A model generated the notes under the pieces. The model saw nothing but the letters and a program-made list of their open reading frames with translations, was not told the origin of the DNA and searched no databases. Positions 11,508 to 29,672 of a DNA stretch of 64,000 bases are shown here, piece after piece. The stretch's first letter is position 1; every line of letters begins with the position of its first letter. This DNA comes from Candidatus Izemoplasmatales bacterium (lineage in GTDB: Bacteria; Bacillota_I; Bacilli_A; Izemoplasmatales; Hujiaoplasmataceae): contig JAQVVR010000008.1 in NCBI GenBank assembly GCA_028698875.1, forward strand, positions 1-64,000, given 5' to 3'. The translations under genes were made by a program, and so were the position numbers.

Positions 11508-11541
11508 TATAAAAAATACGGGCTTTGAATAGCGCGTATTT
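11508..11541 (-). terminator. Terminator ending the methyltransferase/sugar unit
   Basis: On the minus strand AAATACG pairs with CGTATTT around a 14-nt loop and is followed by a T-run. It lies just downstream of the esterase stop at 11573 and marks the end of the unit that begins near 22830. Confidence 0.7.
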
Positions 11542-11572
11542 ATTATATATTATACTCGTACTGTATTTTTGT

Positions 11573-12370
11573 TTAGGGTCGCATCAGTAACCATTTTGCA
11601 AACGCGGGAAATTGTAATTCCCATGTTTTTTCCGAATGAGTACCACCTTCGGTTTCAATATATACTGTTTGTGTTACCTGGTTTTTTAGTAAGACATTAT
11701 ATAAATCCCGTGCATCTGAAAGGTATATTTTTGGAAAATTTTTGCGGGAAGGATCACTGGTTTCATTTGTTCCGATAGTCAGATATATTGCCTGGTTTGG
11801 GGAACAGTTGTTATTAACGTATTCTAAAAATGATGCTTTGGCAAACCATATTGCTGGAGAAAATACTCCGATTGCGGTAAATATTTCTGGGAATCGGCAA
11901 CCAGCATATACCGATATCAGTCCACCCATAGATGATCCCGCCATATATGTCTTATTAGATATAGTATGAAAGTTGGCATCCATCCATGGTTTTAATTCAT
12001 ATACAATCCATTTTATATAGGTTTCGCCTTCACCGCCATAAGTAGTTCCCTGTAAATACGAGATGGACTCGTTAACATTGGTGTTAATCCAGGGAGAATA
12101 CTCGTTGAATCGCTGATCAGTTGGACAATCAATTCCGACGACAATCATATTCAAACCCATTTGATTTTCAATCTCATCCAAGGTGTGATGAATATTCCAA
12201 CTGGCATTGAAAGCTGAAGTTTTCTGATCAAAAAGATTATGGCCATCATGCATATAAAGAACCGGGTAGGACTTAGTGTTTAATCCATATCCGGTGGGTA
12301 GATATATATGAATTGTTTTTTCACGATTAAATGATCGTATTTGTTTCGTTTCAACGATTATTGTTCCCAA
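11573..12370 (-). CDS. Esterase D/Fes-type alpha/beta hydrolase
   Basis: The sequence fits the putative-esterase family (PF00756; esterase D, feruloyl and enterochelin esterases): VLYMHDGHNLFD near residue 35, the nucleophile elbow AGSSMGGL near 145, and GGTHSEKTWELQFP carrying the catalytic His near the end. No signal peptide is seen, so it acts in the cytosol. The start is TTG at 12370, with AGGAG 6 nt upstream. It follows the methyltransferase gene by 20 nt and is the last gene before the terminator. It may remove acyl groups from the imported sugar, but the substrate is unknown. Confidence 0.82.
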   Translation of the reverse strand: MGTIIVETKQIRSFNREKTIHIYLPTGYGLNTKSYPVLYMHDGHNLFDQKTSAFNASWNIHHTLDEIENQMGLNMIVVGIDCPTDQRFNEYSPWINTNVNESISYLQGTTYGGEGETYIKWIVYELKPWMDANFHTISNKTYMAGSSMGGLISVYAGCRFPEIFTAIGVFSPAIWFAKASFLEYVNNNCSPNQAIYLTIGTNETSDPSRKNFPKIYLSDARDLYNVLLKNQVTQTVYIETEGGTHSEKTWELQFPAFAKWLLMRP

Positions 12371-12390
12371 AGGGTTCTCCTATCAAAAAA

Positions 12391-13395
12391 CTATTTATGC
12401 GTTTTGTAAAAATCAGTTACTGTCTCAAAGTACATAGAAATATTTTCCAAATTGGTCATCGGGGGAATATCGCATCCTGTCGATATAATAAAATTGGGAT
12501 ATTTATTACATCTGTTTAATAGCTCCAAAGTAGCATTCTTAACTGTTTCCAATGTTCCTTTCCGAAAAACATCCGATGGTGACAGATTCCCCATAATAAT
12601 TTTATTATCCGGCATCAATTTGAGCATTGTTTCAATGTCAACAGCATTACCAATATGATAGAAATCGGCATCAATACCCGCAATGCTTTCAACCAAAGGA
12701 ACAGTGTTTCCGCAATTATGGTATCCAAAAATAAAATTTTCGTCTTTAACTGCATCAGCAATTTGTTTGATGTATTGTGAAGAAAACATTTCACATAACT
12801 CTGGTGATAGTAATCCCGCAGCCGGTTCAGCCATGATTACCCCATCAGCTCCAACGGCTTTGAAAGCTAAAATATAATTAGTGATAAACTCCGATGTTTT
12901 TTTCAAAGTAGCATGAACCATTTCTGGTTCTAGATAACAATCCACCATTATTTCTGTCATATCCATTAACCGTCCCGCGAGTGAAAACGGCCCAATACAG
13001 CCGGCAAGGACTGGTCGATCGTTAATTAATTCTTTGGCTAATCGAATGCCATCAATATAATTGGCGGTTCGTTTTGTGCCAATTGGTGGTACTTTTAACT
13101 TTTCAATATCATCTTGTGTTTTTAAAATCGAACCAGTTATAGTGGGAATATCCATATCAAAAAACCGAACTTTAGCTCCAAATGCTTCGGCTTCAACCGA
13201 TAAATCCATCATGGATTGAGCAGCACTCATCGGATATGTATCCGCTAACAATTTCATTGCCTTAGCTTGATGTTTTGCATTGCTAATTAAATCAAAAACA
13301 GTAATATTCATCATTTGAATCGCAGGAAACGTCAAAATTGGCAATGTTATATTTCGATTTTGGAGCATAGTTTTTAATATAGTGGTTTTATTCAT
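12391..13395 (-). CDS. URO-D-type (MtaA/CmuA-like) methyltransferase 3
   Basis: The protein belongs to the uroporphyrinogen-decarboxylase superfamily branch that includes the zinc methyltransferases MtaA, MtbA and CmuA. The expected zinc ligands are present: HNC (about His226 and Cys228 from this start) and a late STGCDIPP. Members move methyl groups to or from a corrinoid protein. The IGPFSLAG and AEPAAGLLSPE stretches are typical of this branch. ATG at 13395 is chosen because GAGG lies 7 nt before it; it overlaps the preceding stop by one base (TGATG), a sign of translational coupling. Of the three paralogues in the unit this has the clearest ligand set. It may move a methyl group between the corrinoid and another acceptor; the direction is not known. 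Confidence 0.83.
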   Translation of the reverse strand: MNKTTILKTMLQNRNITLPILTFPAIQMMNITVFDLISNAKHQAKAMKLLADTYPMSAAQSMMDLSVEAEAFGAKVRFFDMDIPTITGSILKTQDDIEKLKVPPIGTKRTANYIDGIRLAKELINDRPVLAGCIGPFSLAGRLMDMTEIMVDCYLEPEMVHATLKKTSEFITNYILAFKAVGADGVIMAEPAAGLLSPELCEMFSSQYIKQIADAVKDENFIFGYHNCGNTVPLVESIAGIDADFYHIGNAVDIETMLKLMPDNKIIMGNLSPSDVFRKGTLETVKNATLELLNRCNKYPNFIISTGCDIPPMTNLENISMYFETVTDFYKTHK

Positions 13396-14450
13396 CAATT
13401 TTCCTCTTCCTCTTGCTGGGTCTTTAATAAAGCAAGGTAATTTTCATTCGATATATAATCCGGAATTGAATTCCCGCTACCTAACGCGTATCCACCCCGG
13501 GTTTTTGTCCTTATCAGCATTTTTTTAGCTCGTTCATATATCTCTACGCTTGAAGCTCGAGACAAAAAATCAACATCCATTCCCCCTAAAACTGCGATAC
13601 GAGGATGTAAAAGCTCGTACGCATCTTCCACTTTCATGATTTTGTCTTCATATGAATGACGTCCATCAAATTTCATCTCATCGATAATGTCGTCAATTAT
13701 ATCGATAAAATAACCGCAGGAGTGAAGTATCGCATATTTACCACAAGCATGTGCTTTCGCCACAATCCGCCGATACCACGGAAAAACCCATTGACGCAAT
13801 AAATCCGGTGGTAACATCGTTTGTGAATTAAAACCCCAATCATCATTACATAGAATCGCTCCCACGTAATTTGATTTCAAACACTCGGTGAAATATGCTT
13901 CGATTCGCATACCAACTTGTTCAAAAACCGCACTTACAAGTTCAGGATTATCATATATGTTCAGACAAAGATTCTCATAGCCCATGATGCCAATAGTGTT
14001 TTCCAAGATTCCATCTAATGAAAAAGGAACGAACTTGACATTCGGAGCTAAATACTTTCCCGCTTTATCAAGTATGGAAAAATCACAGTTACTAATTTTT
14101 GGCCACTGATATTCTTGATATGATTGCCAATCAATAATGGTCGCCCCACTATTTAATGACTTTGTTAATACATGTGCGTGTTCATCAGCCTTACGCGTAA
14201 AATCTAACCCACGGATGACGATACTGGCATGATCAAAACCAGCCGAATCAAAAGCGCGAATATCGGTCAATACTCGGTCAAATTCGGTAGTATTATTATA
14301 CAAGTCTCCAACAAGCATTTTTTCTTTTTCATCACCAATGATAAAGTCAAACATCACAGGTCGTGGGGCTGATTTTCTTTGTAAAATCAGTTCTAAATTA
14401 TGAAAATTTGGCATCCGTTCGGGGCTTCTGAACATGAAGATCACGCTCAC
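13395..14450 (-). CDS. URO-D-type methyltransferase-like protein 2, third zinc ligand missing
   Basis: This is another URO-D superfamily protein, 351 residues from the GTG at 14450. HSCG (His243, Cys245) gives two candidate zinc ligands. The late motif reads LGSGNSIPDY, where MtaA-type proteins have GxGCDxP, so the third Cys is absent. It may use another ligand (e.g. in HSYED near 265) or act as a different enzyme. The start is uncertain: ATGs at residues 6 and 13 are also possible, and none has a strong ribosome site. It follows the lipoprotein gene after a 112-nt gap with a hairpin and is coupled to the next gene by TGATG. Confidence 0.78.
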   Translation of the reverse strand: MSVIFMFRSPERMPNFHNLELILQRKSAPRPVMFDFIIGDEKEKMLVGDLYNNTTEFDRVLTDIRAFDSAGFDHASIVIRGLDFTRKADEHAHVLTKSLNSGATIIDWQSYQEYQWPKISNCDFSILDKAGKYLAPNVKFVPFSLDGILENTIGIMGYENLCLNIYDNPELVSAVFEQVGMRIEAYFTECLKSNYVGAILCNDDWGFNSQTMLPPDLLRQWVFPWYRRIVAKAHACGKYAILHSCGYFIDIIDDIIDEMKFDGRHSYEDKIMKVEDAYELLHPRIAVLGGMDVDFLSRASSVEIYERAKKMLIRTKTRGGYALGSGNSIPDYISNENYLALLKTQQEEEEN

Positions 14451-14500
14451 TTCTGGGTATTGTGTTTTCTATTCTTATAGTGATACTTATCATAATGATT

Positions 14501-14529
14501 CGTGCCGTCCGTATCAACCGGACGGCACG
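14501..14529. terminator. Strong hairpin inside the unit, without a T-run on the minus strand
   Basis: CGTGCCGTCCG pairs perfectly with CGGACGGCACG around a 7-nt loop. On the minus strand no U-tract follows, so it may act as an mRNA processing or stabilising element between the lipoprotein gene and the methyltransferase pair, or as a partial terminator. Confidence 0.55.
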
Positions 14530-14562
14530 CTCATTATTTGTTTAATTAAGCGAGATTATTCT

Positions 14563-16098
14563 TTAGTCTTCAATTATGAATGTGGTAACATGCGTTGTTG
14601 CATTGTAAGTGAAAGTATAGACTGCCGCAGTTTCAACATCAATCGTTGATGATTGACCAAAACCGGCTACGGAACCATCAAATAAATATTGGGTTCCCGC
14701 ACCCCAACCATAATTGCCATAACTTGTTAATACCGTACAGACATTAAAAGTCCAACCAGAACCATCTTCGGTGTATGCAGGTAATGTTGCACTGCCAACA
14801 TAGATGTTAGGATCCTCTTGAGTTCTAACTAATATAACAGCTCCACCTTCTGCTGTCATTGACCATCCGCTAAAATCACCATAAATTACTGGTGAATTCA
14901 TATTCTCGGTCGCTGTTGCCCCAACAACGTTTGTCACATTAGTAGTTGAATTATAGGTAAAACTAATTGTTGTTTGTGTCGCTAAATCAATTTTTGAAGA
15001 TTGTCCAATTCCAGCTACATATCCGCTAAGTAAGTACTGTGTGCCAGCTCCCCAGCCCCATTCTCCATAGTTGACTTTTGTGGTAACTAGATCAAAAGCA
15101 TATTCGTCTCCAGCATCAAGAGTAACAGAGCCGGTATACAAAGTAGGGTCAACAGTATCTTGAACCAAAACGATAGCTCCTGCTAACGGATCAAGTGACC
15201 ATTCACAGAAACTTCCATAGATGATCGGGGTTGCCAGTTCAACAATGTATTCTGTGACTGTTGTGATATGAGTAGCTGAATCATAACTAAATTGATATGT
15301 CGTATTGCTCAATGGCTTTAAGTAAGAGACGCCAGCCATTCCAGCAGTTGTACCATCAAATTTATATTGATCTTTAGCTCCCCAACCATAATAATCCCAT
15401 TGAATTGAGATTGCATATTGCGCTGAAGTAACAACAGCCATTGCGTAACCATCACCATCTCCGGTATACGCGGGTAAAGTAAATTCGCCTGTAAAGACAC
15501 CATCCAAGTCAGAATCAGTCAATTCCAACGCTTCTAGCGGATCAAGACTATAATCTGAGCCACGATTCATTTCGGAATTAAAGTCCCCATAAATGACGGG
15601 ATTGTCGTAATATCTAATCATTGAGGAGTCATATACAGTATGAGTCGTTGAATCAAACAAGATGGTCAAGGTTTGATTCTCAGAAACATAAATTGAGCCA
15701 AGTCCTCCTAGAGTAGATGCTGGAGCTGGTTGCAAAGCGTAATTAACTGCACCCCAAGTGCCAGAAGAGTCCCATGTTCCATTGGTAACTTTATAAAAGT
15801 GACCCTCACAAGCATTGTCTCGATTATCAGCAGTCAAGGCAACTGTAATTGTGTACCAACCATCTTTGCCATCAATTTCTGTTAATGCTGAGTCGGGATC
15901 GTTTGCAATATAGCCATTCCAACTAGCCCCAACATAATATAGTGGTGCGGGTGGTTCCTCGGTCGGCTCTTCAGTTACAGTGCCGGTCGGAGTTACCGTT
16001 GTCAGATTGGCTGTAGTAGTACTATTACATCCGACTAAAACAAGTCCAAAGCCAAACGTAATCAAAATTGTCAAAAGCATTTGGATAATTTTCTTCAT
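14563..16098 (-). CDS. Repeat lipoprotein, probable alpha-glucan-binding protein
   Basis: A lipoprotein signal ends in LVLVGC (Cys24). A Thr/Pro/Glu-rich linker (about 25-52) follows, then four related modules of about 110 residues (roughly 53-165 degenerate, 166-285, 286-400, 402-511). Each of the last three shows PVIYGDF..W, a tasty YGxWGWGAGTQY-like strand and a closing YxFTYNxTTHxTTV. Aromatic residues recur at fixed places, as in carbohydrate-binding modules such as SusE/SusF or pullulanase X25-type domains. It should sit on the outer membrane face and hold the polysaccharide. It follows the GH13 gene by 49 nt in the same unit. I cannot assign a CBM family with certainty. Confidence 0.7.
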   Translation of the reverse strand: MKKIIQMLLTILITFGFGLVLVGCNSTTTANLTTVTPTGTVTEEPTEEPPAPLYYVGASWNGYIANDPDSALTEIDGKDGWYTITVALTADNRDNACEGHFYKVTNGTWDSSGTWGAVNYALQPAPASTLGGLGSIYVSENQTLTILFDSTTHTVYDSSMIRYYDNPVIYGDFNSEMNRGSDYSLDPLEALELTDSDLDGVFTGEFTLPAYTGDGDGYAMAVVTSAQYAISIQWDYYGWGAKDQYKFDGTTAGMAGVSYLKPLSNTTYQFSYDSATHITTVTEYIVELATPIIYGSFCEWSLDPLAGAIVLVQDTVDPTLYTGSVTLDAGDEYAFDLVTTKVNYGEWGWGAGTQYLLSGYVAGIGQSSKIDLATQTTISFTYNSTTNVTNVVGATATENMNSPVIYGDFSGWSMTAEGGAVILVRTQEDPNIYVGSATLPAYTEDGSGWTFNVCTVLTSYGNYGWGAGTQYLFDGSVAGFGQSSTIDVETAAVYTFTYNATTHVTTFIIED

Positions 16099-16122
16099 AA
16101 TTCCTCCTGTAATCTATTTTTT

Positions 16123-16139
16123 TACCGAGTAACTCGGTA
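16123..16139. repeat. Perfect 17-nt palindrome between GH13 and lipoprotein genes
   Basis: TACCGAGT-A-ACTCGGTA is a perfect inverted repeat about 25 nt before the lipoprotein ATG. It may be an operator for an internal promoter or an RNA hairpin; it has no U-tract in the direction of the unit. Confidence 0.5.
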
Positions 16140-16147
16140 TGGATCCC

Positions 16148-17839
16148 TTAATTTAATCGAAAAACGACAAGACTCTTCGCATCAACGATGATACATTCAT
16201 CACTCTTGGTGATATCACCAATTAGTAAGATGCCATTTTTCTTATTTATTTTGTATGGTTCTTCACTAAAATTGACAATAATTTCTAGTTCTTCTTCTTC
16301 ATATATACGGAGAAAATCAAGAATTGTTGCGGGAGATTTTAGTGCTTGAATTGAACCTTTTTTTAGTGTATCTGAATTACTCCTTAATAAAGCAATTTCC
16401 CTAATCCATTTAGCTTCAGTGGTTTTTGTTTGACTCCAATCCATGGCTCGACGATTGGTGGGATCTTTTCCACCATCCATTCCATACTCATCGCCATAAT
16501 AAATTAATGGCATTCCATCGAGCAATAAAGTTGTTCCCATGGTCAGAAAAAAATCTTTTTGATTGCCAATGGTCCGTATAGCTCGTTCGGTATCGTGACT
16601 GCCAATTAGGTTAACCAAGTAATTATGGATTGGTGTCTTGTACAGCATTTTAATTCCAGCCATTTTCGCAAAAAAAGTAGATGAATCGATTTTTTTAGCA
16701 ACAAAATCGAGTAACCATTTGCGGAATTTATAATTAGTAACCGTGTCAAGTTGATCACCTAACGTCCATTTTCCAGCAAAACTCCAGATTTCACCAATTA
16801 TCAGAAGTTCGGGATTATATAATTTAAGTTTGTTGTGGAACTGGTGCCAAAACGCTGAAGAGACTTCATCAGCGACATCAAGTCGCCAACCATCAATTCC
16901 CAGTTCCTTTGTCCAAAACAAGGCTGCTTCCGTCAGAAACTCGATAACATCGGGATTGGCAGTATTGAATCTTGGCATTTGCGGAACAAGGTTAGCAAAA
17001 TTATTATAGTTACCCTTTTCAAAACTAACAGGAAAACTATATGGTTCAAACCAATTACAATAAGGAGAATTTTGCTGGTTTGCAAGTAGGTCTTGAAATA
17101 ATGGATTCTGATAAGAACAGTGATTAAATACTCCATCGAGAATAATTCTTATTCCCATATCGTGGGCTTTTTTTACCAAATTTTGTAAGCCGATTTTCCC
17201 ACCGTAAATGGCTTCAATTTCATAATAATCAGAGATATCATATTTATGATAAGAAGGTGATTTAAATACCGGTGAAAGATAGATAATCTTTGCTCCTAAA
17301 CTCTTAATATAATCCAGTTTTTGGATAATACCATCGAAATCCCCACCATAATAGGTATTGCGATCAGGCAATTCAGAAACAGCCTTAACATTGGGAGGAT
17401 TGTTCGTCGAATCGCCGTCATTAAAGCGATCAACTAGCAATTGATATATAATTTCTCCTTCTGCCCATTTGGGTAAAGAAAGCACCTCATCGGGATTAAT
17501 CATTGGATAATAGAAGCAATTTGTTTCTGTAGGAAAATCAATATATCCATCGGCCGTATAATTGAGCACTTGAGTTTTGCCGGTAAGTTGAAAATAATAT
17601 TTAAAGTGCTTTTCTTCAATCTGGATTGTAGTTTCGAATAAATCGGTTTGCTCATCTCTTAATATCAAATCCATTGTTTTTGAGGCCATTACATCCGTGT
17701 GATCATAAAGATTTTTATAAAATATTTTTACTGATTGAAGATCGCCTTTTTTGGATTTGATTCGAACATTAAGGGTATCTTTGCCTATCGGATAGGCAAA
17801 GACATTTTCGGGAATATGGATGATTGAAGATTTTTCCAT
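16148..17839 (-). CDS. GH13 glycosidase (neopullulanase/cyclomaltodextrinase type)
   Basis: Residues 1-115 form an N-terminal beta domain like CBM34, and the GH13 barrel follows. All main regions are present: DGVFNH (His240), GWRLDVAD with nucleophile Asp321, GEIW with acid/base Glu350, and IGSHDTER with Asp416. No signal peptide exists, so the enzyme acts on imported oligosaccharides in the cytosol. The N-domain plus barrel suggests hydrolysis of maltodextrins, cyclodextrins or pullulan fragments. It follows the MalG-type permease by 14 nt with AGGAG before the ATG. In this unit it may cleave an alpha-glucan that also carries methyl groups; that is inference. Confidence 0.92.
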   Translation of the reverse strand: MEKSSIIHIPENVFAYPIGKDTLNVRIKSKKGDLQSVKIFYKNLYDHTDVMASKTMDLILRDEQTDLFETTIQIEEKHFKYYFQLTGKTQVLNYTADGYIDFPTETNCFYYPMINPDEVLSLPKWAEGEIIYQLLVDRFNDGDSTNNPPNVKAVSELPDRNTYYGGDFDGIIQKLDYIKSLGAKIIYLSPVFKSPSYHKYDISDYYEIEAIYGGKIGLQNLVKKAHDMGIRIILDGVFNHCSYQNPLFQDLLANQQNSPYCNWFEPYSFPVSFEKGNYNNFANLVPQMPRFNTANPDVIEFLTEAALFWTKELGIDGWRLDVADEVSSAFWHQFHNKLKLYNPELLIIGEIWSFAGKWTLGDQLDTVTNYKFRKWLLDFVAKKIDSSTFFAKMAGIKMLYKTPIHNYLVNLIGSHDTERAIRTIGNQKDFFLTMGTTLLLDGMPLIYYGDEYGMDGGKDPTNRRAMDWSQTKTTEAKWIREIALLRSNSDTLKKGSIQALKSPATILDFLRIYEEEELEIIVNFSEEPYKINKKNGILLIGDITKSDECIIVDAKSLVVFRLN

Positions 17840-17853
17840 GTTGTGATGCTCCT

Positions 17854-18702
17854 TTACATTTTGACCGAGCCTTCAGTTAGACCACCGATAAAATACTTCT
17901 GCATCGAATAAAACAAGAGAATCATTGGAACAGACCCCAAAACTGATGCAGCACAATACAGGCTCCAATTGGTCCCGTATTGACCAACAATCATACTTTG
18001 AAGACCAACAGCAAGAGGCATACTATCTAACCCCTGTGTCATGATGGTTGAGGCAATAGCATATTCATTATAAGCAATTACAAAACTCTGAATTGCCACT
18101 ACAGCAAGCATCGGTTTGGCTAATGGCAAGATAATATGAATTAGTGTTTGAAATTTTGTTGCCCCATCCATCATCGCCGCTTCATCAAGTTCATAGGGAA
18201 TCGTATCAAAGTATCCTTTTGCAAGTAACACCAACCCTGCGGATGATACAGTAGCGTTGATAATGATTAATCCTTTAATATCATTAAGCAATCCTAAAGT
18301 GACAAATATTCTAAAAATGGAGACCATGGATAACATAAGGGGAAATACTTGAATCAGTAAGATAAAATTAAATAATTTATGTTTTCCTAAAAATTTTAAC
18401 CGAGAAAAAACATAGACGGAAACACTGACAAAAATAACACTGATAACCATTGTAACTAAACTGATAATAATTGAGTTTCTAATCCAGTCGAGAAAACTGG
18501 TCTCAGCGAATAAACGAGCAAAGTTATCAAATGTATATTCTTCTGGAATCGCTGCGGCGGTTCCCACGACATCTTTACCAAAAGCCATCATAATAATATA
18601 TATAAAAGGAATCAAAGTAATGACAGCAAGCGTTAATAACAGACAGTGAATTAAGATTTGAATTGCACGATCTTTATTCGAACGTTTTCTAATATTCCTC
18701 AT
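17854..18702 (-). CDS. MalG-type ABC sugar permease
   Basis: This 282-residue protein has six membrane segments and the cytoplasmic EAA loop DEAAMMDGATKFQTLIHIIL, which docks with the ATPase. It matches the MalG/second permease class of carbohydrate importers. The start ATG lies 3 nt after the stop of the MalE-MalF fusion, with GGAGG inside the end of that gene. No MalK/MsmK ATPase gene is present in this window, so the importer must use an ATPase encoded elsewhere, as is common in Bacillota. Confidence 0.92.
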   Translation of the reverse strand: MRNIRKRSNKDRAIQILIHCLLLTLAVITLIPFIYIIMMAFGKDVVGTAAAIPEEYTFDNFARLFAETSFLDWIRNSIIISLVTMVISVIFVSVSVYVFSRLKFLGKHKLFNFILLIQVFPLMLSMVSIFRIFVTLGLLNDIKGLIIINATVSSAGLVLLAKGYFDTIPYELDEAAMMDGATKFQTLIHIILPLAKPMLAVVAIQSFVIAYNEYAIASTIMTQGLDSMPLAVGLQSMIVGQYGTNWSLYCAASVLGSVPMILLFYSMQKYFIGGLTEGSVKM

Positions 18703-18705
18703 GAT

Positions 18706-21036
18706 TTAGTCCTCCGATATCTTTCTACCAACGCGCATCGCAATCAGTGAGAAGATGGCTACAAACACAAAGATGATGACTGAGTAAGCAGCTGCAACTG
18801 CAAATCGGTTGGTGTTAAAGGCGGTGTTGAAAACATAGGTAATCAACAAATCAGTTGCACCAGGGGCACCAATAGTATCAGCCGCTGGTCCACCTTGTGT
18901 CAAAATATATACACCAAACTGGTTAAATTGCATGATGAAGGACATTATGAGGATGGGAATCAAAGCCCGAAATACCAAAGGCAGTGTAATTGTAAAGAAG
19001 ATATGAAAAGCACTCGCACCATCAACCTTGGCAGCCTCATAATAATCTTTGGGAATCGCTTTGAGATGCCCAGTGGCAATAATCATGAAATAAGGAAATG
19101 AGAACCAAACCATGACCAAAATCGTCGATATTTTTGCCATATATGGATCGGAAAGCCACGGGATATTTGGAATGCCAACCAAACCTAAGATTTGATTAAC
19201 TAGTCCATTGTCAGTATCTAAAAGTCCTTGCCACATTAAAAGTGTAATAACGGTTGGAATTACCCACGGAAGAATAAAAATGATCCGGTAGAATTTTGCG
19301 ACATGAAAATTAATTTTGTTTAACACGGAAGCCAAAATGGTTCCTAATAAAAATGATAGTGTAACAACACAAGTAGCAAAGACAATCGTCCAAACGGTCA
19401 TTGATGCCAAACCATCTAGTCCAGCAACGAAAATATCTTTATAATTAGCAAATCCAATCAGACCATAGTCACGGAGATTAATACCAGAATAATCGGTAAG
19501 TGATAAATACACATTATGGATGATTGGATAAACATAAAATACAATAAGAAGAATCAGTAATGGAACCATCAAAAGCCAAGCTATGAGCGTCTCTTTCCAC
19601 GAAATGCGTCCATAATGAGGCTTTTTTTTGCGGATAACGTATTTCTTGATAATTAGATATGCCGCAATTCCAATCACAAACACACCGATTATTACAGCCC
19701 ATATCCAGGAAGGGATGTCAATCCGTTCCGCTTGGTAATTCATCAAAGCGACATCGTTTCGGATTGCTTCAGTCAATTCCGAAAGTTTAGCTTGTACATC
19801 AATGTCGTCATCATCCGAATCACTAAAAAAAATGGATTGAAATACAGTTGAAGTGTAGTTGTACCATATGGTGCCTTCAGGGATGTTTGGAAATGGTTCA
19901 CATTCACCATTGAGACTGCCTAAAGATGCTAATACTTCATCTGATTGGATATACTCGCTATTTATGACAGCATAGTTTGTGGGGTTTCGCGTGCCGATCT
20001 TGTCAGCATTATTGTTCCCACCTTCGATTAGTAATTGCTGATTGTCATCTTCAAGAATGTATTCGAGAAATTGAAGCGATTCTTCAAGATTATCCGTAAA
20101 TTTGTTTACTACGAATCCTTGAACTGTTGTCAGGGCAAGTGATGTTGTACCATCGGTTTGATCTGGAAGTGAAGCGATACCGTAATTAACATTTTTCTGT
20201 TTAAATATACTCGCGTACCATAAGCCATAAATCATCATGGCAACATTGCCATTTGCAAACCGAGAGACAATTTCACTCTCACCATGAATTTTATTAGTAA
20301 GAACCAGTCCATTTTCCTTCAGTTCTTTTACTTTAGCAATATAATTGACCATGCCTTCATTATCAAGACCGATATCAAATGGGTTATAATCACCATTGGG
20401 AAATTGCCCATAATAATAACCGCCGAATTCTTTGATAATCGGATAGTTGAACCACATATCACGTGAATTCATTAGTATTCCCCACTGGGTCACTTCGCCG
20501 TCGTCATTGCGAATCGTCAGCGCTTCTCCAAGGGCGAAGTACTCTTCCCAAGTTTCTGGCAAGTCTTCTTCAGCTATTAAATCTTTGTTATACAAAAGCC
20601 CATAAGTGTCGATTGAATAACCGACGCCATAGATGTTACCATTATACGAAAAAGCACTAAAAGCCACATCAGCATAGCGAGCAGTCATCTCATCATCAAT
20701 AAAGTCAGTAAGTGGTTCTAAATACCCAGAAGCGATAAGGCCACCAATATCGGGGGCTTGCATAAGCACAATATCCGGCCGATCATCAAGTTCTGCGTTA
20801 TTAACCAAATCATCTGCTCCATTGAAAGCATTGATTCTTGGAACTACTTCTACAGCAATCCCGGTTTCATTAGTAAATTGATTGGCTATTGCAATCATGG
20901 CATCATTTTCTTGTGTGTATTGCGATAACCAAATGCGGACGACGCTATCACTAGCAGCCTCCGCTTTAATCGGGGTTAAGGAAAAGAAGGTAAATCCTAA
21001 TAGAGTTAGTAGTAAGAACAATAACACTTTTTTCAT
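18706..21036 (-). CDS. Fused sugar-binding protein and MalF-type permease
   Basis: The protein joins two normally separate parts. Residues 1-28 are a secretion signal (TPIKAEAAS). Residues 29-435 are an extracytoplasmic solute-binding protein of the MalE type (GYSIDTYGLLYNKD, ANGNVAMMIYG, FVVNKF). A membrane segment at about 443-463 leads to a basic stretch (VIRKKK), and about 480-776 is a MalF-type permease with EAAKVDGASAFHIFFTITLP as EAA loop. The binding domain would stay tethered outside, next to the channel. The fusion takes the place of a free lipoprotein receptor. It lies 28 nt downstream of methyltransferase gene 1 and just before the MalG-type gene. Maltodextrin-like substrates are suggested by the GH13 neighbour. 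Confidence 0.9.
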   Translation of the reverse strand: MKKVLLFLLLTLLGFTFFSLTPIKAEAASDSVVRIWLSQYTQENDAMIAIANQFTNETGIAVEVVPRINAFNGADDLVNNAELDDRPDIVLMQAPDIGGLIASGYLEPLTDFIDDEMTARYADVAFSAFSYNGNIYGVGYSIDTYGLLYNKDLIAEEDLPETWEEYFALGEALTIRNDDGEVTQWGILMNSRDMWFNYPIIKEFGGYYYGQFPNGDYNPFDIGLDNEGMVNYIAKVKELKENGLVLTNKIHGESEIVSRFANGNVAMMIYGLWYASIFKQKNVNYGIASLPDQTDGTTSLALTTVQGFVVNKFTDNLEESLQFLEYILEDDNQQLLIEGGNNNADKIGTRNPTNYAVINSEYIQSDEVLASLGSLNGECEPFPNIPEGTIWYNYTSTVFQSIFFSDSDDDDIDVQAKLSELTEAIRNDVALMNYQAERIDIPSWIWAVIIGVFVIGIAAYLIIKKYVIRKKKPHYGRISWKETLIAWLLMVPLLILLIVFYVYPIIHNVYLSLTDYSGINLRDYGLIGFANYKDIFVAGLDGLASMTVWTIVFATCVVTLSFLLGTILASVLNKINFHVAKFYRIIFILPWVIPTVITLLMWQGLLDTDNGLVNQILGLVGIPNIPWLSDPYMAKISTILVMVWFSFPYFMIIATGHLKAIPKDYYEAAKVDGASAFHIFFTITLPLVFRALIPILIMSFIMQFNQFGVYILTQGGPAADTIGAPGATDLLITYVFNTAFNTNRFAVAAAYSVIIFVFVAIFSLIAMRVGRKISED

Positions 21037-21064
21037 GTCTTCTCCCTCGTTTCTTCTTTGTCTT

Positions 21065-22144
21065 TTATTTATTTTTTAATTGTTCAAAAAGAGTAGTATA
21101 TTTGATTCCTTCTTCAATTGACTTAACTGGCAAGCAGATAGAAAAATTGCCTTTTTTCATCTCATTATAATGGTTTTGAATCTCTTCAAAAGTATCGCAA
21201 TCAATGGCAATAGCCACACCGTTTGCAGCTTTGACAAGTTGTTCAATATGATCAATTGGCCGTGGCTGATTGGGATCGGTTGCTAACCAAAGATGCGCAA
21301 CATTCCGTAGATGACAAATTTCCTTAACCAGATACATCGCCCGTGAGTGGCAGTGCATATAACCAACACCAAAATGATCAATTACTTTTTGTGTGTGGGG
21401 AGCGCAAAATTCGTTGTATGCTGCCCCCGATATCATGCAAGCAATGTCTTCGCTCATATTAATCTTGCCTTTGGTATACCAAGTTCCATATTTCGTTTTA
21501 CCATTATATTTGTTGTTGAGAGCGTAAATATCTTCGGCAAACTTGATGGTGGCATCGGCACAATAATCTAATAATTCATGAACCATATCGGGATCATCAT
21601 AGAAATCATAATAGATGTTTTCTCCACGTAACGCATGAGCTAAATCCAACGGAGAGAAAAAACCGCGCATGAAAGGAATTCCTGTGCCTTGTGTTTTCTT
21701 TAACAATAGTTCCGAGATTTCCAAGAATTTCTTGTACCACTTGGATGTTCCTAAAGGTGGCAGATTCCGAAAATCTTCGATTTCTTTCAAACACGGAGTT
21801 GACCAACTAGTATCTTTACGAAAAATGATTTCTCCGGTGACGAAAGCTGAATAGTCGCCGATTCCGAGTATTGGTCCAATTGAAGGAAAGAAATTATCGT
21901 TGATATCTTTACGTGCCGCAAATGATTTTTCCATTCCCGCTAAAAGACTTTCTGCGTATGCATCCAAATCAGTTTCATAATTATATTTGGTTAAATCAAA
22001 ATCGTTATATATCTCAATATCGGATGGTGGCAAAGCTCGAAAAGATATATTTCCGCCACAACCAGCCACAGCATCATCATACATTTTTTTGGACGATAAA
22101 ATTGTTTGATCAAGATCGTTTTTATATGCGTCGATTGTTTTCAT
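21065..22144 (-). CDS. URO-D-type methyltransferase 1
   Basis: A member of the URO-D/methylcobamide methyltransferase superfamily, 359 residues. MHCHSR gives His264 and Cys265 as zinc ligands, and FSICLPV supplies a late Cys337; the motif is more divergent than in MtaA. It lies 7 nt after the corrinoid protein gene, so the two are probably made together and act as a pair: a substrate-specific enzyme passing a methyl group to the cob(I)amide of the corrinoid protein. TTAGGA precedes the ATG. The methyl donor is unknown; the downstream sugar importer and GH13 enzyme suggest a sugar-linked methyl group. Confidence 0.82.
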   Translation of the reverse strand: MKTIDAYKNDLDQTILSSKKMYDDAVAGCGGNISFRALPPSDIEIYNDFDLTKYNYETDLDAYAESLLAGMEKSFAARKDINDNFFPSIGPILGIGDYSAFVTGEIIFRKDTSWSTPCLKEIEDFRNLPPLGTSKWYKKFLEISELLLKKTQGTGIPFMRGFFSPLDLAHALRGENIYYDFYDDPDMVHELLDYCADATIKFAEDIYALNNKYNGKTKYGTWYTKGKINMSEDIACMISGAAYNEFCAPHTQKVIDHFGVGYMHCHSRAMYLVKEICHLRNVAHLWLATDPNQPRPIDHIEQLVKAANGVAIAIDCDTFEEIQNHYNEMKKGNFSICLPVKSIEEGIKYTTLFEQLKNK

Positions 22145-22151
22145 ATATATC

Positions 22152-22784
22152 CTAATTTCTCAGGAAAGCCAAAGCCGCTTCTGAGGCTGAGGCTGCATCT
22201 GCCGTGTATGCGTCTGCTCCGATTTCATTGGCAAATCCTTGCGTCACGGGGGCTCCACCGACCATAACTACAACTTGATCCCTTATTCCAGCTTTAACTA
22301 AGGCATCAATAATAACTTTTTGGTTCATCATTGTAGTTGTTAGCAAAGCTGATAAACAGACAAGATCAGGATGATGGGTCTTGACAGCTTCAACAATTGT
22401 ATCGGCATCAACGTCAACCCCCAAATCGATAACTTCAATTCCCTGACCCTCTAACATCATTTTGACAAGATTCTTGCCAATATCATGCAAATCTCCCATT
22501 ACTGTGCATATGATTGCTTTTCCAACTGACTTTGCGCCCGAGGCAACCAAAGCCGGTCGAAGAATCTCTAAACCAGAGTTCATCGCTCTTGCAGCAACTA
22601 ACACTTCTGGCACAAACACTTCATTATTTTTAAATTTTCCGCCGATAATTGACATCCCTTTAATAAGTCCTTCGTTCAAAATCATCGTCGGTGTAATTTT
22701 TTCATCAAGAGCTTGCTGAACCAAAATTTTTACTTCTTTGGCTTTGCCCTTTTGTAGCAAAGTACTAATGTCTTCCAATATCAT
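22152..22784 (-). CDS. Corrinoid (B12-binding) methyltransferase subunit
   Basis: The 210-residue protein is a methyltransferase corrinoid subunit of the MtaC/MtbC/MtmC type. Residues 1-85 are the helical cap. The Rossmann domain has GDLHDIGKN with the lower-ligand DxHxxG (Asp98, His100, Gly103), SALLTTTM near 145 and VGGAPVTQGFA near 175. An open frame extends up to 22868, but AGAAGG 8 nt before the ATG at 22784 sets the start. It is the first gene of the long unit. The protein would carry the methyl group on cobalt between the URO-D-type enzymes, and would be re-reduced by the activase encoded upstream. Confidence 0.95.
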   Translation of the reverse strand: MILEDISTLLQKGKAKEVKILVQQALDEKITPTMILNEGLIKGMSIIGGKFKNNEVFVPEVLVAARAMNSGLEILRPALVASGAKSVGKAIICTVMGDLHDIGKNLVKMMLEGQGIEVIDLGVDVDADTIVEAVKTHHPDLVCLSALLTTTMMNQKVIIDALVKAGIRDQVVVMVGGAPVTQGFANEIGADAYTADAASASEAALAFLRN

Positions 22785-22838
22785 ATGCGTTTCCTTCTTT
22801 CTATAGATAAATTTCATAAGAAATAATATTCCATTGTT

Positions 22839-22861
22839 ATTATACTTTAAAGCGCTTTCAT
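22839..22861 (-). promoter_or_regulatory. Promoter -10 with overlapping cre-like site
   Basis: On the minus strand ATGAAAGCGCTTTAA (22861-22847) fits the CcpA cre consensus WTGNAANCGNWNNCW at all but one informative base. A perfect TATAAT follows at 22844-22839. The -35 region is weak. The site lies where bound CcpA would block RNA polymerase, so the unit is probably repressed by preferred sugars. Confidence 0.7.
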
Positions 22862-22922: not shown

Positions 22923-22970
22923 TCAAAAAAAAAGACAACCCGCCTTAGAGAGGAAAAACGGTTGTCTTTT
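22923..22970 (-). terminator. Terminator after the regulator gene
   Basis: AAAAGACAACC pairs with GGTTGTCTTTT and is followed by T residues on the minus strand. It separates the regulator/activase cassette from the corrinoid unit. Confidence 0.88.
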
Positions 22971-22977
22971 AGTGGGA

Positions 22978-24273
22978 TTATAACAAATCCATATATTTTT
23001 TTGGGGTGATTCCATGATACTTCTTAAAAGTCTTTGTAAAATAACCCGCATCTTTGAACCCGCTTTTAATGGCTATATCTTGAATAGACAATTGTCTTTC
23101 CTTCATTAGTTTGATAGCCGCTTCCATCCGAACCTTGTTAATATAATCGCTGAATGTTAGATCCATTTCGTCACGGAATAAATGCGAAAGGTAATAGCCG
23201 CTTACAAATACATTGCTCGCTACCGTATTAAGAGAAAGATCATCCGTAAGATTTTTTTTAATAAAATTGATGGCATTAATTAAATGCTCATTGGATTGTT
23301 TCTTGAAACGATTTTGATAAATTACATTGTTGATATCATCCATCAGTTCCGATGTTAGTAGACAGACCTCATCATACTGAGTATCGTCTGCGAGAATAAC
23401 AGTGACTTTTTTAGGGATAGCAGCTAAGTCACTTAGTAATACCCCAGCATCTACCGCTGCCCGCATCAAAACGGCTGTCAATTCATAGACGTTGGCTTTG
23501 ATAATGTCGAGGTCTCCCGAAGAAATAGCGAATATTTCCCCTAAGATTCCATTAAGAATTTCTATTGCTTGAACGGTATCACCGGCCTGAACGTATGCGA
23601 TTAGTTCCTTCTCCATTTCGTAGGGATATTTCTTGAATTTATTTCGTCTTTCAAGCGATTCGAGACTAATGGCATTCAATCGCTTTTCATTCATTAGTTC
23701 GGCAATTTTGTTTTGCTGCTTGGATAATTTTAACCGCTGTCTTAGAAAAATACTTTCCTCTTTACACATGTATGTAACCATAATGGATAACATTTGTGCC
23801 GCTGATCGCATATTTTCCGGTGTCAATTGCTTTACACAACTTAGAATGGTACATGCCTCCGATGGAGATATATCATATTTTCCGGCAAATGTTATCAGAT
23901 CCTGATGAGCAATTTCATCGGCTTCCCACAGCAATACCGGTCCACAAGCTAAACTGCCAAGATATTTTTCCTCAAAGAGGATAGGAACAGAACACTTAAT
24001 CATTGTTCCACATTGAAAAATATATGGTTCCCCCAAATCGGCAGCTTTCATCCCTGCATATTTCATCTGAGGATTGCAGTTTGATTGTCTTTTTCTGACT
24101 AATTCACAGATTGATTTTTCCGGATTGATGCGATAACTTAAGACTTCATCCCCACCAATACTATGTAATGATACATCAATCCCTGTTAATTTAGAAAAAT
24201 TGGCAAAGAGCGATTTTAAGTCATCAAAATTTAAGACTTCTTCTAACTGTAATGGTGAAAATTCAACTTTCAA
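22978..24273 (-). CDS. PocR-domain AraC-family regulator
   Basis: The N-terminal 175 or so residues match the PocR sensor domain (PF10114), including the Cys-rich SICELVRKRQSNCN and the PILFEEKYLGSLACGPV stretch. A linker follows, and the last 100 residues are a two-helix-turn-helix AraC domain (VFVSGYYLSHLFRDEM, then IQDIAIKSGFKDAGYFTKTF). PocR-AraC proteins control cobalamin-linked pathways and are often found beside corrinoid methyltransferases. It probably senses a substrate of the pathway and activates the adjoining units. The start is TTG, fixed by AGGAGG 8 nt before it. It is the last gene of a three-gene cassette. Confidence 0.88.
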   Translation of the reverse strand: MKVEFSPLQLEEVLNFDDLKSLFANFSKLTGIDVSLHSIGGDEVLSYRINPEKSICELVRKRQSNCNPQMKYAGMKAADLGEPYIFQCGTMIKCSVPILFEEKYLGSLACGPVLLWEADEIAHQDLITFAGKYDISPSEACTILSCVKQLTPENMRSAAQMLSIMVTYMCKEESIFLRQRLKLSKQQNKIAELMNEKRLNAISLESLERRNKFKKYPYEMEKELIAYVQAGDTVQAIEILNGILGEIFAISSGDLDIIKANVYELTAVLMRAAVDAGVLLSDLAAIPKKVTVILADDTQYDEVCLLTSELMDDINNVIYQNRFKKQSNEHLINAINFIKKNLTDDLSLNTVASNVFVSGYYLSHLFRDEMDLTFSDYINKVRMEAAIKLMKERQLSIQDIAIKSGFKDAGYFTKTFKKYHGITPKKYMDLL

Positions 24274-24297: not shown

Positions 24298-25779
24298 TTA
24301 TATGGAGAACATCATGTTCTCGATGAACCGCTCTGTAAATCCAAATTCTTTCGTCATTAAATCAATTGTTTGGACTTTTAGTGCTAATTCTTGAACTTGT
24401 TTAATTTTTTCTGGATTGAGAAGACACATTGCCGCTCCCAGTCCAGATGTGTTTCCAACACTAATAATTCGACCATGGAAAACTTTTGGTAGTAAACCGA
24501 TTTTCAAAGCATTATCCAAATTTAGATAAAAACCGAATCCCCCAGCGACAAAAACTTTGTTAACTGCATCCACATCAACGTTTGCAGCATTCAATAATGT
24601 TTCAATTCCAGCGCAAATTGCGCTTTTCGCCAATTGGAATTGGCGAACATCTTTTTGTGTTAGATAAATATCGTTTAGTAACATAAAACGATCAGCATCT
24701 AGGTGATTGGCCAGTTGACTTTGAGAATTGTGGCAAAATGCCCCAGTTTCATCAATGATTCCTTCTGACACAAGGATTGCCACAAGATCTACCAAACCAC
24801 TTCCACATATTCCAATTGGCGGTTGATTGCCAATTGTTTCAAAAGCCAGTTTTCCAGTATTAAATGTGACTCTGGCGATTGCTCCTTTTATCCCGCCCAA
24901 TCCTTTTTCAATGTTTGCTCCCTCAAAAGCCGGCCCGGTTGCCGTGGAACATCCGAAATAGAAATCTCGTTTTTTTAAGATGATTTCTCCATTTGTTCCC
25001 ATATCAATAAGTAGTGAAGTTTCCGCTTCAAGCATCCCTGAAGATATCATTCCTGCTGACAAATCAGCCCCGATAAAAGCACTAATTGATGGCAACAAAA
25101 TTATTTTTTCTGATAAGAGACCACATTCTTTGCCCATCAAAGTTTTCGTTTCTAGAAATACCGGCGTGTATGGAGCTGAACCGATTGTTCCTGGATTTAC
25201 GTTAGCGATAATATGGAGCATGGTTGGATTCCCGGCAATAACGATTCTTGAAATTTCTGTAATTGAAAAAACTGAAAGCCATTGGATAATCTGTTGGTTA
25301 ATCGCTTGAATAACGATTTCATTTTCCGCAAGTAAAAACCCAGAAAGGCATTTATCAATACGACTAATTACATCAGCTCCGTATATGGCCTGGGGATTAA
25401 GAAATGAGCAGGAGTCTTTTAACATATTAGTTTTTAAATCATATAAATACAAAGCAATAGTTGTGGTTCCCAAATCGATGGCAACACCAAATCCTTCAGT
25501 AACAGTCGATTCATATACTGTAGGCATCGAATTATAAATTGGTTTACTTTGTCTTGACTTAATGCTAACAGTAACATCATTTGTCACGTAGTAATGACAT
25601 GCAAGCGTTTCATTTCTGGCACCTACAATTCCAACCAAGCATTTATTACAGATGCCTTTTCCTCCACAGGTTCCTCCCGTATCAATCCGGTGGTCAATAA
25701 ATAAATCCATCAATCTAGTTCCATAAACGACCGAAAATGTTTTCGTTTCATTGCCAATATTGACCGTAACTATGGGCAT
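24298..25779 (-). CDS. Reductive activator of corrinoid proteins (RACE type)
   Basis: Residues 1-80 form a plant-type [2Fe-2S] ferredoxin domain with Cys38, Cys44, Cys47 (GGKGICNKC) and Cys61. From about 93 onward the protein is the ASKHA-fold DUF4445 region (GVAIDLGTTTIALYLYD, VIAGNPTMLH, LLIDMGTNGEI, VFVAGGFGFYL). Proteins of this kind (RamA-related, called RACE or MtgA/MtvD activators) use ATP and an electron to return inactive Co(II) corrinoid to Co(I). It is shorter (493 residues) than many of about 600, with little linker between ferredoxin and ASKHA parts. It is translated after DUF2284 with GAGG and a 2-nt gap. Confidence 0.92.
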   Translation of the reverse strand: MPIVTVNIGNETKTFSVVYGTRLMDLFIDHRIDTGGTCGGKGICNKCLVGIVGARNETLACHYYVTNDVTVSIKSRQSKPIYNSMPTVYESTVTEGFGVAIDLGTTTIALYLYDLKTNMLKDSCSFLNPQAIYGADVISRIDKCLSGFLLAENEIVIQAINQQIIQWLSVFSITEISRIVIAGNPTMLHIIANVNPGTIGSAPYTPVFLETKTLMGKECGLLSEKIILLPSISAFIGADLSAGMISSGMLEAETSLLIDMGTNGEIILKKRDFYFGCSTATGPAFEGANIEKGLGGIKGAIARVTFNTGKLAFETIGNQPPIGICGSGLVDLVAILVSEGIIDETGAFCHNSQSQLANHLDADRFMLLNDIYLTQKDVRQFQLAKSAICAGIETLLNAANVDVDAVNKVFVAGGFGFYLNLDNALKIGLLPKVFHGRIISVGNTSGLGAAMCLLNPEKIKQVQELALKVQTIDLMTKEFGFTERFIENMMFSI

Positions 25780-29660: not shown

Positions 29661-29672
29661 CTTATTTCCCCC

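Follow-up and report, generated by a model that had tools for sequence, protein, structure and literature searches.

Three-component systems such as MtvB, OdmB/VdmB, MtoB and CdmBCA, which act on methoxylated aromatics and chloromethane, keep a methyltransferase I of the URO-D fold, a small corrinoid protein and an activase together (PMC13222342, accessible part), and the locus described here likewise groups a small corrinoid protein and an activase with URO-D-type proteins proposed as methyltransferase I. Like type 1 mlp clusters (PMC10418091, accessible part), it holds several URO-D paralogues, a corrinoid protein and an activase, and no folate methyltransferase; the words sugar, glycoside and carbohydrate do not occur in the accessible text of that paper. 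It also resembles maltodextrin and starch operons (MalEFG plus a neopullulanase-type GH13) in its MalE/F/G, PF02903-containing GH13 and starch-binder-like lipoprotein, and in having TrmB/LacI regulators or a cre-like site. Finally, the proposed O-demethylation, within a utilization locus, of a methylated sugar that derives from a polysaccharide is shared with the aerobic cytochrome P450 route for 6-O-methyl-D-galactose, as described in the accessible part of PMC10033563. The window analyzed is a stretch of 64,000 nucleotides from a Candidatus Izemoplasmatales bacterium. We propose, with a probability of roughly 70%, that its locus serves the utilization of an O-methylated, probably acylated alpha-glucan by uptake, deacylation, hydrolysis and corrinoid O-demethylation. 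We know of no URO-D methyltransferase that acts on a sugar methyl ether. The words corrinoid and cobalamin do not occur in the accessible text of a paper on Izemoplasmatales (PMC7761423).

Open reading frame calls and domain profiles place nine genes on the minus strand between 11573 and 22784 (Table 1), in the 5' to 3' order corrinoid protein, URO-D1, MalE-MalF fusion, MalG, GH13, lipoprotein, URO-D2, URO-D3 and esterase. This is the order claimed in the earlier note, which also gave most gaps as under 50 nt; counted from the 3' end of the block the gaps are 20, -4, 112, 49, 14, 3, 28 and 7 nt, that is, seven of eight are below 50 nt. Gene set, order and tight gaps are as it claimed, but the block need not be read as a single unbroken transcript, as a hairpin, a possible attenuator or processing site, lies in the 112 nt that separate the lipoprotein gene from URO-D2. 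The terminator it had placed behind the esterase gene is a real hairpin, though unlisted by the genome-signal scan. Near 22840, where it had put the promoter, there is indeed a TATAAT, but sigma-70-like matches in the window are at shuffle level (61 against 60.4 expected, i.e. no excess). Mismatches of the adjoining cre-like site were counted against a cre consensus: sites with at most one mismatch occur in five of ten PocR-type loci, and among the 18 upstream regions scanned five have at most one and the remaining 13 two to three. For the corrinoid gene, ATG 22784, preceded by AAGAAGGAA, is a likelier start than the listed GTG, with start and RBS judged by eye. The hairpin farther upstream sets the nine-gene block apart from the PocR-AraC, RACo and DUF2284 genes, a separate unit that is functionally part of the block; a DUF2284 gene lies at the equivalent position in many relatives.

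Table 1. Features of the locus, with positions in the window, strand and supporting match or signal.
Feature	Position	Strand	Basis
Terminator-like hairpin with T tail, 3' of esterase	11508..11541	-	sequence, fold z -3.7
PF00756 esterase	11573..12370	-	PF00756 5.2e-27
URO-D3, MtaA/CmuA-like, H227-x-C229 + C309	12391..13398	-	PF01208 4.4e-57
URO-D2, second proposed methyltransferase I	13395..14450	-	PF01208 7.9e-16
11-bp GC-rich hairpin in lipoprotein/URO-D2 gap	14501..14529	-	fold z -6.5
Lipoprotein, repeated beta-sandwich domains	14563..16098	-	lipobox-like N-terminus by eye
GH13, neopullulanase/cyclomaltodextrinase type	16148..17839	-	PF00128 3.7e-66, PF02903 N-domain 9.4e-23
MalG-type permease	17854..18702	-	PF00528 7.9e-15
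MalE-type binding protein fused to MalF-type permease	18706..21036	-	PF13416 5.5e-37 + PF00528 4.6e-18, one ORF
URO-D1, divergent URO-D fold, proposed methyltransferase I	21065..22144	-	PF01208 3.5e-7
Corrinoid protein (B12-binding_2 + B12-binding), first gene of the unit	22152..22784	-	PF02607 6.4e-20, PF02310 5e-26
cre/LacI-like palindrome TGAAAGCGCTTTAA	22847..22860 (written 22860-22847)	-	adjoins -10 box TATAAT 22844-22839
Terminator-like T-tailed hairpin between PocR-AraC and corrinoid genes	about 22930..22961	-	z -2.6
AraC regulator with PocR sensory domain	22978..24273	-	PF10114 4.6e-25, PF12833 1.1e-21
RACo-type corrinoid reductive activase	24298..25779	-	PF14574 3.3e-72, PF17651 5.8e-39
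DUF2284 predicted metal-binding protein	25782..26318	-	PF10050 2.3e-45

Homologs of MalE, MalF and MalG of a maltodextrin ABC importer are present. They score under the NCBIfam equivalog cut-offs (MalF 192 and MalE 144 bits for the fusion, 164 bits for MalG), so the substrate is not necessarily plain maltodextrin. The GH13 enzyme joins a catalytic domain to a PF02903 N-domain and is closest to TVAII/neopullulanase (nearest PDB chain 1bvz, 4.4e-116); its catalytic Asp/Glu/Asp regions were recognized by eye, and we take this type to be GH13_20. It has no signal peptide by eye and is thus probably cytoplasmic. The esterase, whose N-terminus by eye also lacks a signal peptide, is proposed to be a deacylase. 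The lipoprotein has no match in Pfam or among PDB sequences, and the Thermotogota sequences in its alignment show no evident lipobox. Only two PDB structures match its AF2 model (pLDDT 83.1, pTM 0.44) below 1e-3, SusF 4fe9 (3.6e-6) and Sca5 X25-2 7rpy (5.7e-5); this SusF/X25-like beta-sandwich, with low whole-chain TM scores (0.15-0.28), suggests a surface alpha-glucan binder.

URO-D1 and URO-D2 belong to the URO-D family by profile, URO-D1 also by predicted fold, and their profiles share no useful similarity with each other (probability 3.8). In alignments the full H-x-C...C set is missing from both. URO-D1 has the motif H264-x-H266-S, and H264, H266, E232 and D233 are invariant in a 20-row alignment. 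Its AF2 model (pLDDT 94.4, pTM 0.92) best matches UROD 1j93, 1r3w and 3gvv, then MetE 3l7r, the closest fold thus being a decarboxylase; its profile has no match among PDB sequences, and known methyltransferase models recognize it only very distantly (30.9 bits). Given this divergence, family membership would not by itself establish methyl transfer by URO-D1. URO-D2 has H243-S-C245-G, with a Ser where MtaA-type enzymes probably have their third Cys, and its profile reaches only 0.0089 against the MtaA structure 4ay7. URO-D3 carries the SCMT H-x-C...C motif and scores under cut-off against TIGR01463 (128.7 bits; curated cut-off 235.4) and NF004889 (146.7 bits); we propose it as a putative methyltransferase II acting on a thiol. 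The corrinoid protein, a predicted methyl carrier, has both B12 domains of the three-component systems (PF02607, PF02310) above cut-off and 221 bits against NCBIfam NF047996, under its 370-bit cut-off. The reductive activase of such systems is represented by RACo middle and C-terminal domains.

A pattern scan of the genomes of 84,980 species gave 21 further URO-D1 loci in Izemoplasmatales, other Mollicutes, Thermotogota and Bacillota, all from metagenome bins whose host names may be wrong. Whether the neighborhood occurs only here had been set beforehand as a test: it recurs at 21 of 21 other URO-D1 loci, in several phyla by bin name, which rules out a chance neighborhood. MalE/F lies on the same strand as URO-D1 at all 21, and MalG and GH13 are present at each of the 19 whose sequence reaches that far; two break off inside MalEF. 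The lipoprotein was found in 13 of 15 further loci and URO-D2 (at least 39% identity) in 13 of 14; the fourteenth, L050, has a 28% relative and an altered gene order with the set retained. Regulators of the TrmB or LacI type, both usual for sugars, occur in other carriers. Besides that of the window, esterase-like genes occur in the loci (PF00756-like in 8/21, SASA in 2/21) and, in a further two carriers, on a separate contig; recurrence of two unrelated esterase families fits an acylated substrate. A corrinoid gene is on the same contig in 15 of the 21 loci, in 13 within the locus stretch, those of L051 and L054 being located through L028 and L105, which share their contigs. Three loci (L048, L052, L053) are cut short. 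No corrinoid gene lies within 10 kb on each side of L040 and L050, or between the contig end 2.4 kb upstream and 10 kb downstream of L049. These three also have neither URO-D3 nor a thioredoxin-tailed URO-D, and L049 no esterase, in the stretches examined, so the missing parts would need to act in trans.

Co-divergence was assessed on 15 of the 22 loci. Pairwise distances of URO-D1, MalEF, MalG, GH13 and URO-D2 correlate with r 0.60-0.90, and for all ten pairs none of 999 permutations was as high (n=12-15). Corrinoid protein distances co-vary with those of URO-D1 (5/999, n=8) and MalEF (0/999, n=8). Co-divergence is weak for URO-D3 (63/999 against URO-D1) and not clear for the esterase (107/999 against MalEF, 162/999 against URO-D2).

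Within the order, a close GH13 group (at least 46%) is found in 12 of 90 genomes, which are exactly the union of the 11 URO-D1 carriers and the 11 strong URO-D2 carriers; in G020 and G028, each without one of the two, contig ends cut the locus. URO-D1 is all-or-none in the class: 395 genomes gave 13 matches, the weakest at 2.1e-178, and none between that value and 1e-10. The remaining URO-D1 matches in the order, none stronger than 4e-8, come from other URO-D proteins. The window's GH13 forms its own clade, apart from the order's 32-39% identical paralogues. An ordinary maltodextrin operon is ruled out, since this GH13 stands as a group of its own that goes with URO-D1/URO-D2, and such paralogues coexist with it in four carriers (G013, G017, G024, G028). 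One URO-D2 relative in the order does not accompany this GH13 group; it lies in G049, in another sugar cluster, a second corrinoid/URO-D cluster where three further URO-D proteins and a corrinoid protein accompany GH38, an isomerase-like protein, two PfkB, a class II aldolase, an alpha/beta hydrolase and a sugar ABC importer.

The earlier note had taken the methyl group as a C1 source, which the gene content does not support. Neither MTHFR nor the pterin-binding methyltransferase PF00809 was detected in any of the 90 Izemoplasmatales genomes, and MetE-core PF01717 in none of 18 carriers; PF02574 is present in 4 of these 18 but in none of the order's 12. The window's own genome, 88% complete, gave no PF00809 match, and no pterin-binding methyltransferase II of the MtrH/CmuB/CdmA kind was found for this system. 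Of the 12 carriers to which other loci led, six contain a PF00809 match somewhere in the genome. For the order, transfer to methyl-folate by an MtrH/CmuB-type enzyme or MTHFR is ruled out since the genes were not found, and no MetE-core or PF02574 route to methionine was found in its carriers. With MTHFR and pterin-binding methyltransferase missing from the order, the acceptor is probably a thiol; URO-D3 may be directed at homocysteine.

In the proposed pathway, the SusF/X25-like lipoprotein would hold the glucan at the surface and MalEF-MalG would bring in oligosaccharides, from which the cytoplasmic esterase would take off acyl groups while GH13 would cut the alpha-glucosidic bonds. URO-D1 and URO-D2 would each demethylate a sugar methyl ether, perhaps with a different position for each, and load the methyl onto the Co(I) corrinoid protein, and RACo would re-reduce corrinoid oxidized to Co(II). 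URO-D3 would then deliver the methyl to an acceptor that is probably a thiol rather than tetrahydrofolate, a role that a URO-D with a thioredoxin-like tail may take in some other carriers. Bare glucose would enter glycolysis. The observations behind this proposal are gene content, conservation, co-divergence, predicted folds and the missing folate methyl genes; the sugar as methyl donor, the step order, the thiol acceptor and the direction of transfer are what we infer from sequence. Of the scheme first suggested, the conserved neighborhood, the co-diverging core and an esterase that fits acylation have held up and the C1 source has not, while methyl on the glucan is likewise something we infer. 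The possible substrate it named, acylated 6-O-methylglucose glucan, does contain suitable bonds, and its methyl groups occupy two kinds of position, according to the accessible part of PMC4555173.

It is unlikely, though not far-fetched, that the methyl comes from a donor that has nothing to do with the glucan, e.g. a methyl-sulfur compound or betaine, with corrinoid and sugar genes sharing regulation only. URO-D3 does resemble the thiol-acting MtaA/CmuA enzymes, the corrinoid protein scores best, under cut-off, against a betaine-type MtgC model, and mlp clusters, which combine an activase and a corrinoid protein with several URO-D and lack a folate methyltransferase, are proposed to be S-/Se-methyl-directed (PMC10418091, accessible part). 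However, in bins of several phyla URO-D1 and URO-D2 sit beside or in among the genes for the importer and GH13, and within the order this GH13 group accompanies them, save for the URO-D2 relative of G049.

Considerably less probable is a small alpha-glucoside with a methylated aglycone, such as a methoxylated aromatic, which GH13 would free and the URO-D proteins demethylate. The URO-D O-demethylases known so far use methoxylated aromatics (PMC13222342, accessible part). As for the glucoside, short alpha-glucosides can be substrates of GH13 enzymes of this kind. A multi-domain SusF/X25-like lipoprotein, MalE/F/G import and a neopullulanase-type enzyme instead suggest a polymer or oligomer; esterases recur, and the second cluster of G049 pairs with isomerase, kinases and aldolase, i.e. 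sugar breakdown. Marginally more doubtful still is the idea that URO-D1 and URO-D2 are no methyltransferases here and treat the sugar by some other TIM-barrel chemistry, and that corrinoid genes were added later. The remoteness of URO-D1 from methyltransferase models, its UROD-like fold and the three loci whose examined stretch shows no corrinoid gene speak for it; the corrinoid genes on the same contig in most loci and the co-variation of the corrinoid protein with URO-D1 and MalEF speak against it. Corrinoid genes also differ in arrangement among loci, which implies a link made or kept repeatedly and argues against later addition.

Demethylation of an imported glucan thus remains our preferred reading: the conserved block probably joins import and cutting of a starch-like chain to B12 enzymes that strip its methyl groups without oxygen. 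Such use of methylated sugars appears not to have been described before. The titles and abstract openings of the matches listed, all from outside the subscription literature, contain no description of corrinoid O-demethylation of sugars, and the only enzymatic methyl-sugar route found in the literature searched is the oxidative P450 route. To our knowledge, what becomes of methyl sugars in the absence of oxygen is undescribed. If true, our reading would give anaerobes a B12-based route for methyl sugars, extend corrinoid methyltransferases to alkyl ethers of sugars, provide a genomic marker for methylated-glycan breakdown in anoxic habitats, and pose an answerable question, the methyl's destination in cells without methyl-folate enzymes. 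More tentatively, anaerobes could possess a family of glycan loci in which B12 methyltransferases strip sugar O-methyls (from a glucan here, a mannoside in a relative) and pass the methyl to a thiol and not tetrahydrofolate, with URO-D1 and URO-D2 serving two positions as in acylated methylglucose polysaccharides.

Unlike the MtvB, OdmB/VdmB, MtoB and CdmBCA systems, this one has no pterin-binding methyltransferase II that we found in the window's genome or order, and has glucan binding, import, deacylation and hydrolysis genes built in. The mlp enzymes are described as SCMT-like and S/Se-directed (PMC10418091, accessible part), whereas here only URO-D3 looks SCMT-like. Maltodextrin and starch operons differ in lacking the separate GH13 group, the MalE-MalF fusion, the corrinoid methyltransferase genes and the esterase. 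And while the P450 route is oxidative and yields formaldehyde (PMC10033563, accessible part), the B12 methyl transfer proposed here would proceed without oxygen.

The corrinoid and alpha-glucan genes form one nine-gene block (Table), in which seven of the eight gaps between neighbours are shorter than 50 nt; the sole longer one, 112 nt between the lipoprotein and URO-D2 genes, contains a very stable hairpin. Genes for a PocR-AraC regulator, the corrinoid reductive activase RACo and a DUF2284 protein lie upstream of the block, beyond a T-tailed hairpin. The genome, available as a draft of 1.42 Mb, is 88% complete. It has three URO-D matches in all (URO-D1, URO-D2 and URO-D3), GH13 gives seven matches in five open frames including the block enzyme, and Pterin_bind has no match in this 88% complete draft. 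It is striking that the 90 genomes of the order Izemoplasmatales lack methyl-folate and dihydropteroate-synthase genes. Elsewhere in the window, one ORF (2024-4006) encodes glycosyltransferase domains and, nearer the C-terminal end, weakly matches an acyltransferase, and the stretch 28218-31156 encodes an M20 peptidase close to a DUF5058 protein.

Table. Coordinates of the window block and of related corrinoid/URO-D features elsewhere.
Feature	Position	Strand	Content
Nine-gene block	window, 22784 -> 11573	minus	corrinoid protein, URO-D1, MalE-MalF, MalG, GH13, lipoprotein, URO-D2, URO-D3, PF00756 esterase
Thioredoxin-tailed URO-D, ~450 aa	L028:4171-5538, L045:10647-12032, L032:10458-11816		beside corrinoid genes; CobW in L028 and L032
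Second cluster	L032, L138, L139 = G049:C57, about 8064-41920		corrinoid/URO-D genes with GH38, sugar kinases, isomerase-like, aldolase, ABC importer

The block recurs. Among the 90 genomes of the order, URO-D1 was matched at E <= 0.001 in 13, two of them weakly and by other URO-D proteins, and at 3e-96 or better in 11 including the window's; in all ten others of these, the fused MalE-MalF gene (MalEF) adjoins URO-D1. A profile search of 395 genomes of the class detected URO-D1 in 13, the weakest at 2.1e-178, with the whole range from there to the 1e-10 limit empty. Scanning an 84,980-species collection with two peptide patterns, and so not exhaustively, yielded 40 pattern matches and a set of 21 relatives, ten of which appear to be contigs of the other strong-match genomes of the order; all 21 are metagenome bins, Izemoplasmatales and other Mollicutes-type bins among them. 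Counted with tblastn, MalE/F is present in 21/21 loci and MalG and GH13 in 19/21 each, the other two (L047 and L048) ending within MalEF. In L047 (5117-6805) two ORFs stand instead of one MalEF, a frameshift or sequencing error. The lipoprotein gene is found in 13 of the 15 loci reaching that far (not in L050 and L052), and URO-D2 at >=39% in 13 of 14, L050 having a 28% relative; this last locus is rearranged (esterase, URO-D, MalE, MalF, MalG, URO-D1, GH13) and retains the set. The corrinoid gene was identified in 13/21 loci, or 15/21 when further contig stretches of L051 and L054 (L028, L105) are included; it was not found within 10 kb on each side of L040 and L050, nor around L049, where the contig stops after 2.4 kb upstream and 10 kb were covered downstream. 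URO-D1 was not found in genome G028, where MalEF-MalG-GH13-lipoprotein-URO-D2 runs off a contig end.

Pairwise distances of URO-D1, MalEF, MalG, GH13 and URO-D2, taken from 15 of 22 loci after leaving out those cut short, correlate at r 0.60-0.90 (n 12-15), matched by 0/999 label permutations for all ten pairs. The corrinoid protein follows URO-D1 (5/999) and MalEF (0/999; n 8), while co-divergence is weaker for URO-D3 (URO-D1 63/999, n 6; MalEF 5/999, n 7) and mixed for the esterase (n 6; URO-D1 5/999, MalEF 107/999, URO-D2 162/999). Since such distances partly share species history, they demonstrate co-inheritance, not function. Within the order, URO-D1 and URO-D2 occur in 11 genomes each and overlap in ten (Fisher 2e-11, 90 genomes), contig ends cutting the locus in both mismatches. 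Relatives of the block GH13 under 1e-80 occur in 21/90 genomes and split into a band of >=46% identity, in 12 genomes, and a lower band of 32-39%; the 12 are exactly those with URO-D1 or a strong URO-D2 match. A tree separated 16 locus GH13 sequences from nine others (of sixteen intended, after ORF choice) with modest support of 82/63, and a 14-sequence subset has support of 100/100.

On the sugar side, the proteins closest to the block GH13 are TVAII, neopullulanase and maltogenic amylase. For the lipoprotein, Pfam gives no match; a search of the PDB with its AlphaFold model (pLDDT 83.1, pTM 0.44) finds just two structures below 1e-3, namely SusF and the Sca5 domain X25-2, both starch-binding. 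Beside the window's esterase, PF00756-like genes occur in 8/21 loci and SASA genes in 2/21 (family checked against Pfam for the genes of the window, L045, L050 and L051), with PF00756-like genes also on separate contigs of two further carriers of the locus. The L045 gene is on the other strand, and, judged by eye, genes with a clear start show no evident signal peptide. From the protein families of the block it follows that the cell would import, deacylate and hydrolyze a glucan, and the tight gene link suggests that the sugar may be the methyl donor. Acylated methylglucose polysaccharides are described in PMC4555173 as alpha-1,4-linked glucose and 6-O-methylglucose chains that end in 3-O-methylglucose and are esterified with acetate, propionate, isobutyrate, succinate and octanoate. 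An esterase that keeps recurring and two nearly constant types of URO-D would suit such a polysaccharide, but would suit other methylated alpha-glucans as well; that it is the exact substrate is a tentative assignment, less likely than not.

The URO-D1 model (pLDDT 94.4, pTM 0.92) matches UROD structures, then MetE, and its alignment retains H264-x-H266. Apart from the L050 relative, URO-D2 retains H243-S-C245, and Ser or Thr stands where a third Cys likely belongs. Because some methyltransferase I enzymes work without zinc, according to PMC13222342, these missing ligands are compatible with methyl transfer. URO-D3, found in 6/21 stretches and, in two further carriers, on contigs apart from the locus, retains H-x-C plus a late Cys, a full ligand set that would fit a thiol acceptor. 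In four of the 21 loci (L045, L046, L051, L054) it is replaced by a URO-D with a thioredoxin-like C-terminal tail (PF13192 at 1.8e-4, below cut-off, for the L028 protein, the one compared), followed by a CobW GTPase on the L051 and L054 contigs and by RACo in the two Thermotogota; neither form was found in the L040, L049 and L050 stretches. The tailed protein is possibly a new type of methyltransferase II. MTHFR and Pterin_bind were each matched in 0/90 genomes of the order, 33 of them >=90% complete, so the acceptor there is probably not methyl-folate. MetE-core was matched in 0/18 carriers and PF02574 in 4/18, none of the four in the order; Pterin_bind occurs somewhere in the genome in six of 12 carriers examined via other loci and not in the other six.

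A PocR-AraC regulator (36-73% identity) is encoded in 9/21 loci and a TrmB-like one in 7/21 (partial in L050), with LacI beside L049. A cre/LacI-like palindrome with <=1 mismatch directly adjoins the corrinoid gene's -10 box in five of the ten PocR-type loci, window included, equalled by 0-3 of 200 single-base shuffles; those of L036 and L042 have two mismatches (19 and 28 of 200 as good), and L037, L044 and L047, also PocR-type, have no convincing site. Because of this position, the corrinoid gene seems to be under sugar-type control in at least half of the PocR-type loci.

The nearest URO-D2 relative outside the carriers in the order (4e-54) belongs to the second cluster, in genome G049. Its neighbours encode two further URO-D proteins and a corrinoid protein, along with a class II aldolase and a flavin-reductase-like protein, and the cluster also contains two PfkB kinases, a D-lyxose-isomerase-like protein, an alpha/beta hydrolase, GH38 proteins, DUF4432 and a DeoR regulator. 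Further genes on this contig encode a sugar-type ABC importer, RACo, CobW, one more GH38 protein and the thioredoxin-tailed URO-D. Judged from family names, in a cluster reached by one lead in one genome, this looks like a mannoside pathway incorporating corrinoid URO-D proteins, a candidate methyl-mannoside pathway. A related corrinoid cluster, L031 (G047:C89, 871-9097), has a thioredoxin-tailed URO-D, CobW, a DeoR regulator and a URO-D of 406 aa that shares 70% identity with a G049 URO-D, on a contig too short to show whether sugar genes adjoin.

Among the matches listed by a full-text literature search, none describes the demethylation of sugars by corrinoid enzymes, an absence that is weak evidence; for 6-O-methylgalactose, oxidative methyl removal by a P450 is described in PMC10033563. 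Each component belongs to a known kind; what is new is how they are combined and the likely substrate. The thiol acceptor considered here parallels the proposal made, in PMC10418091, for the known multi-URO-D corrinoid (mlp) clusters.
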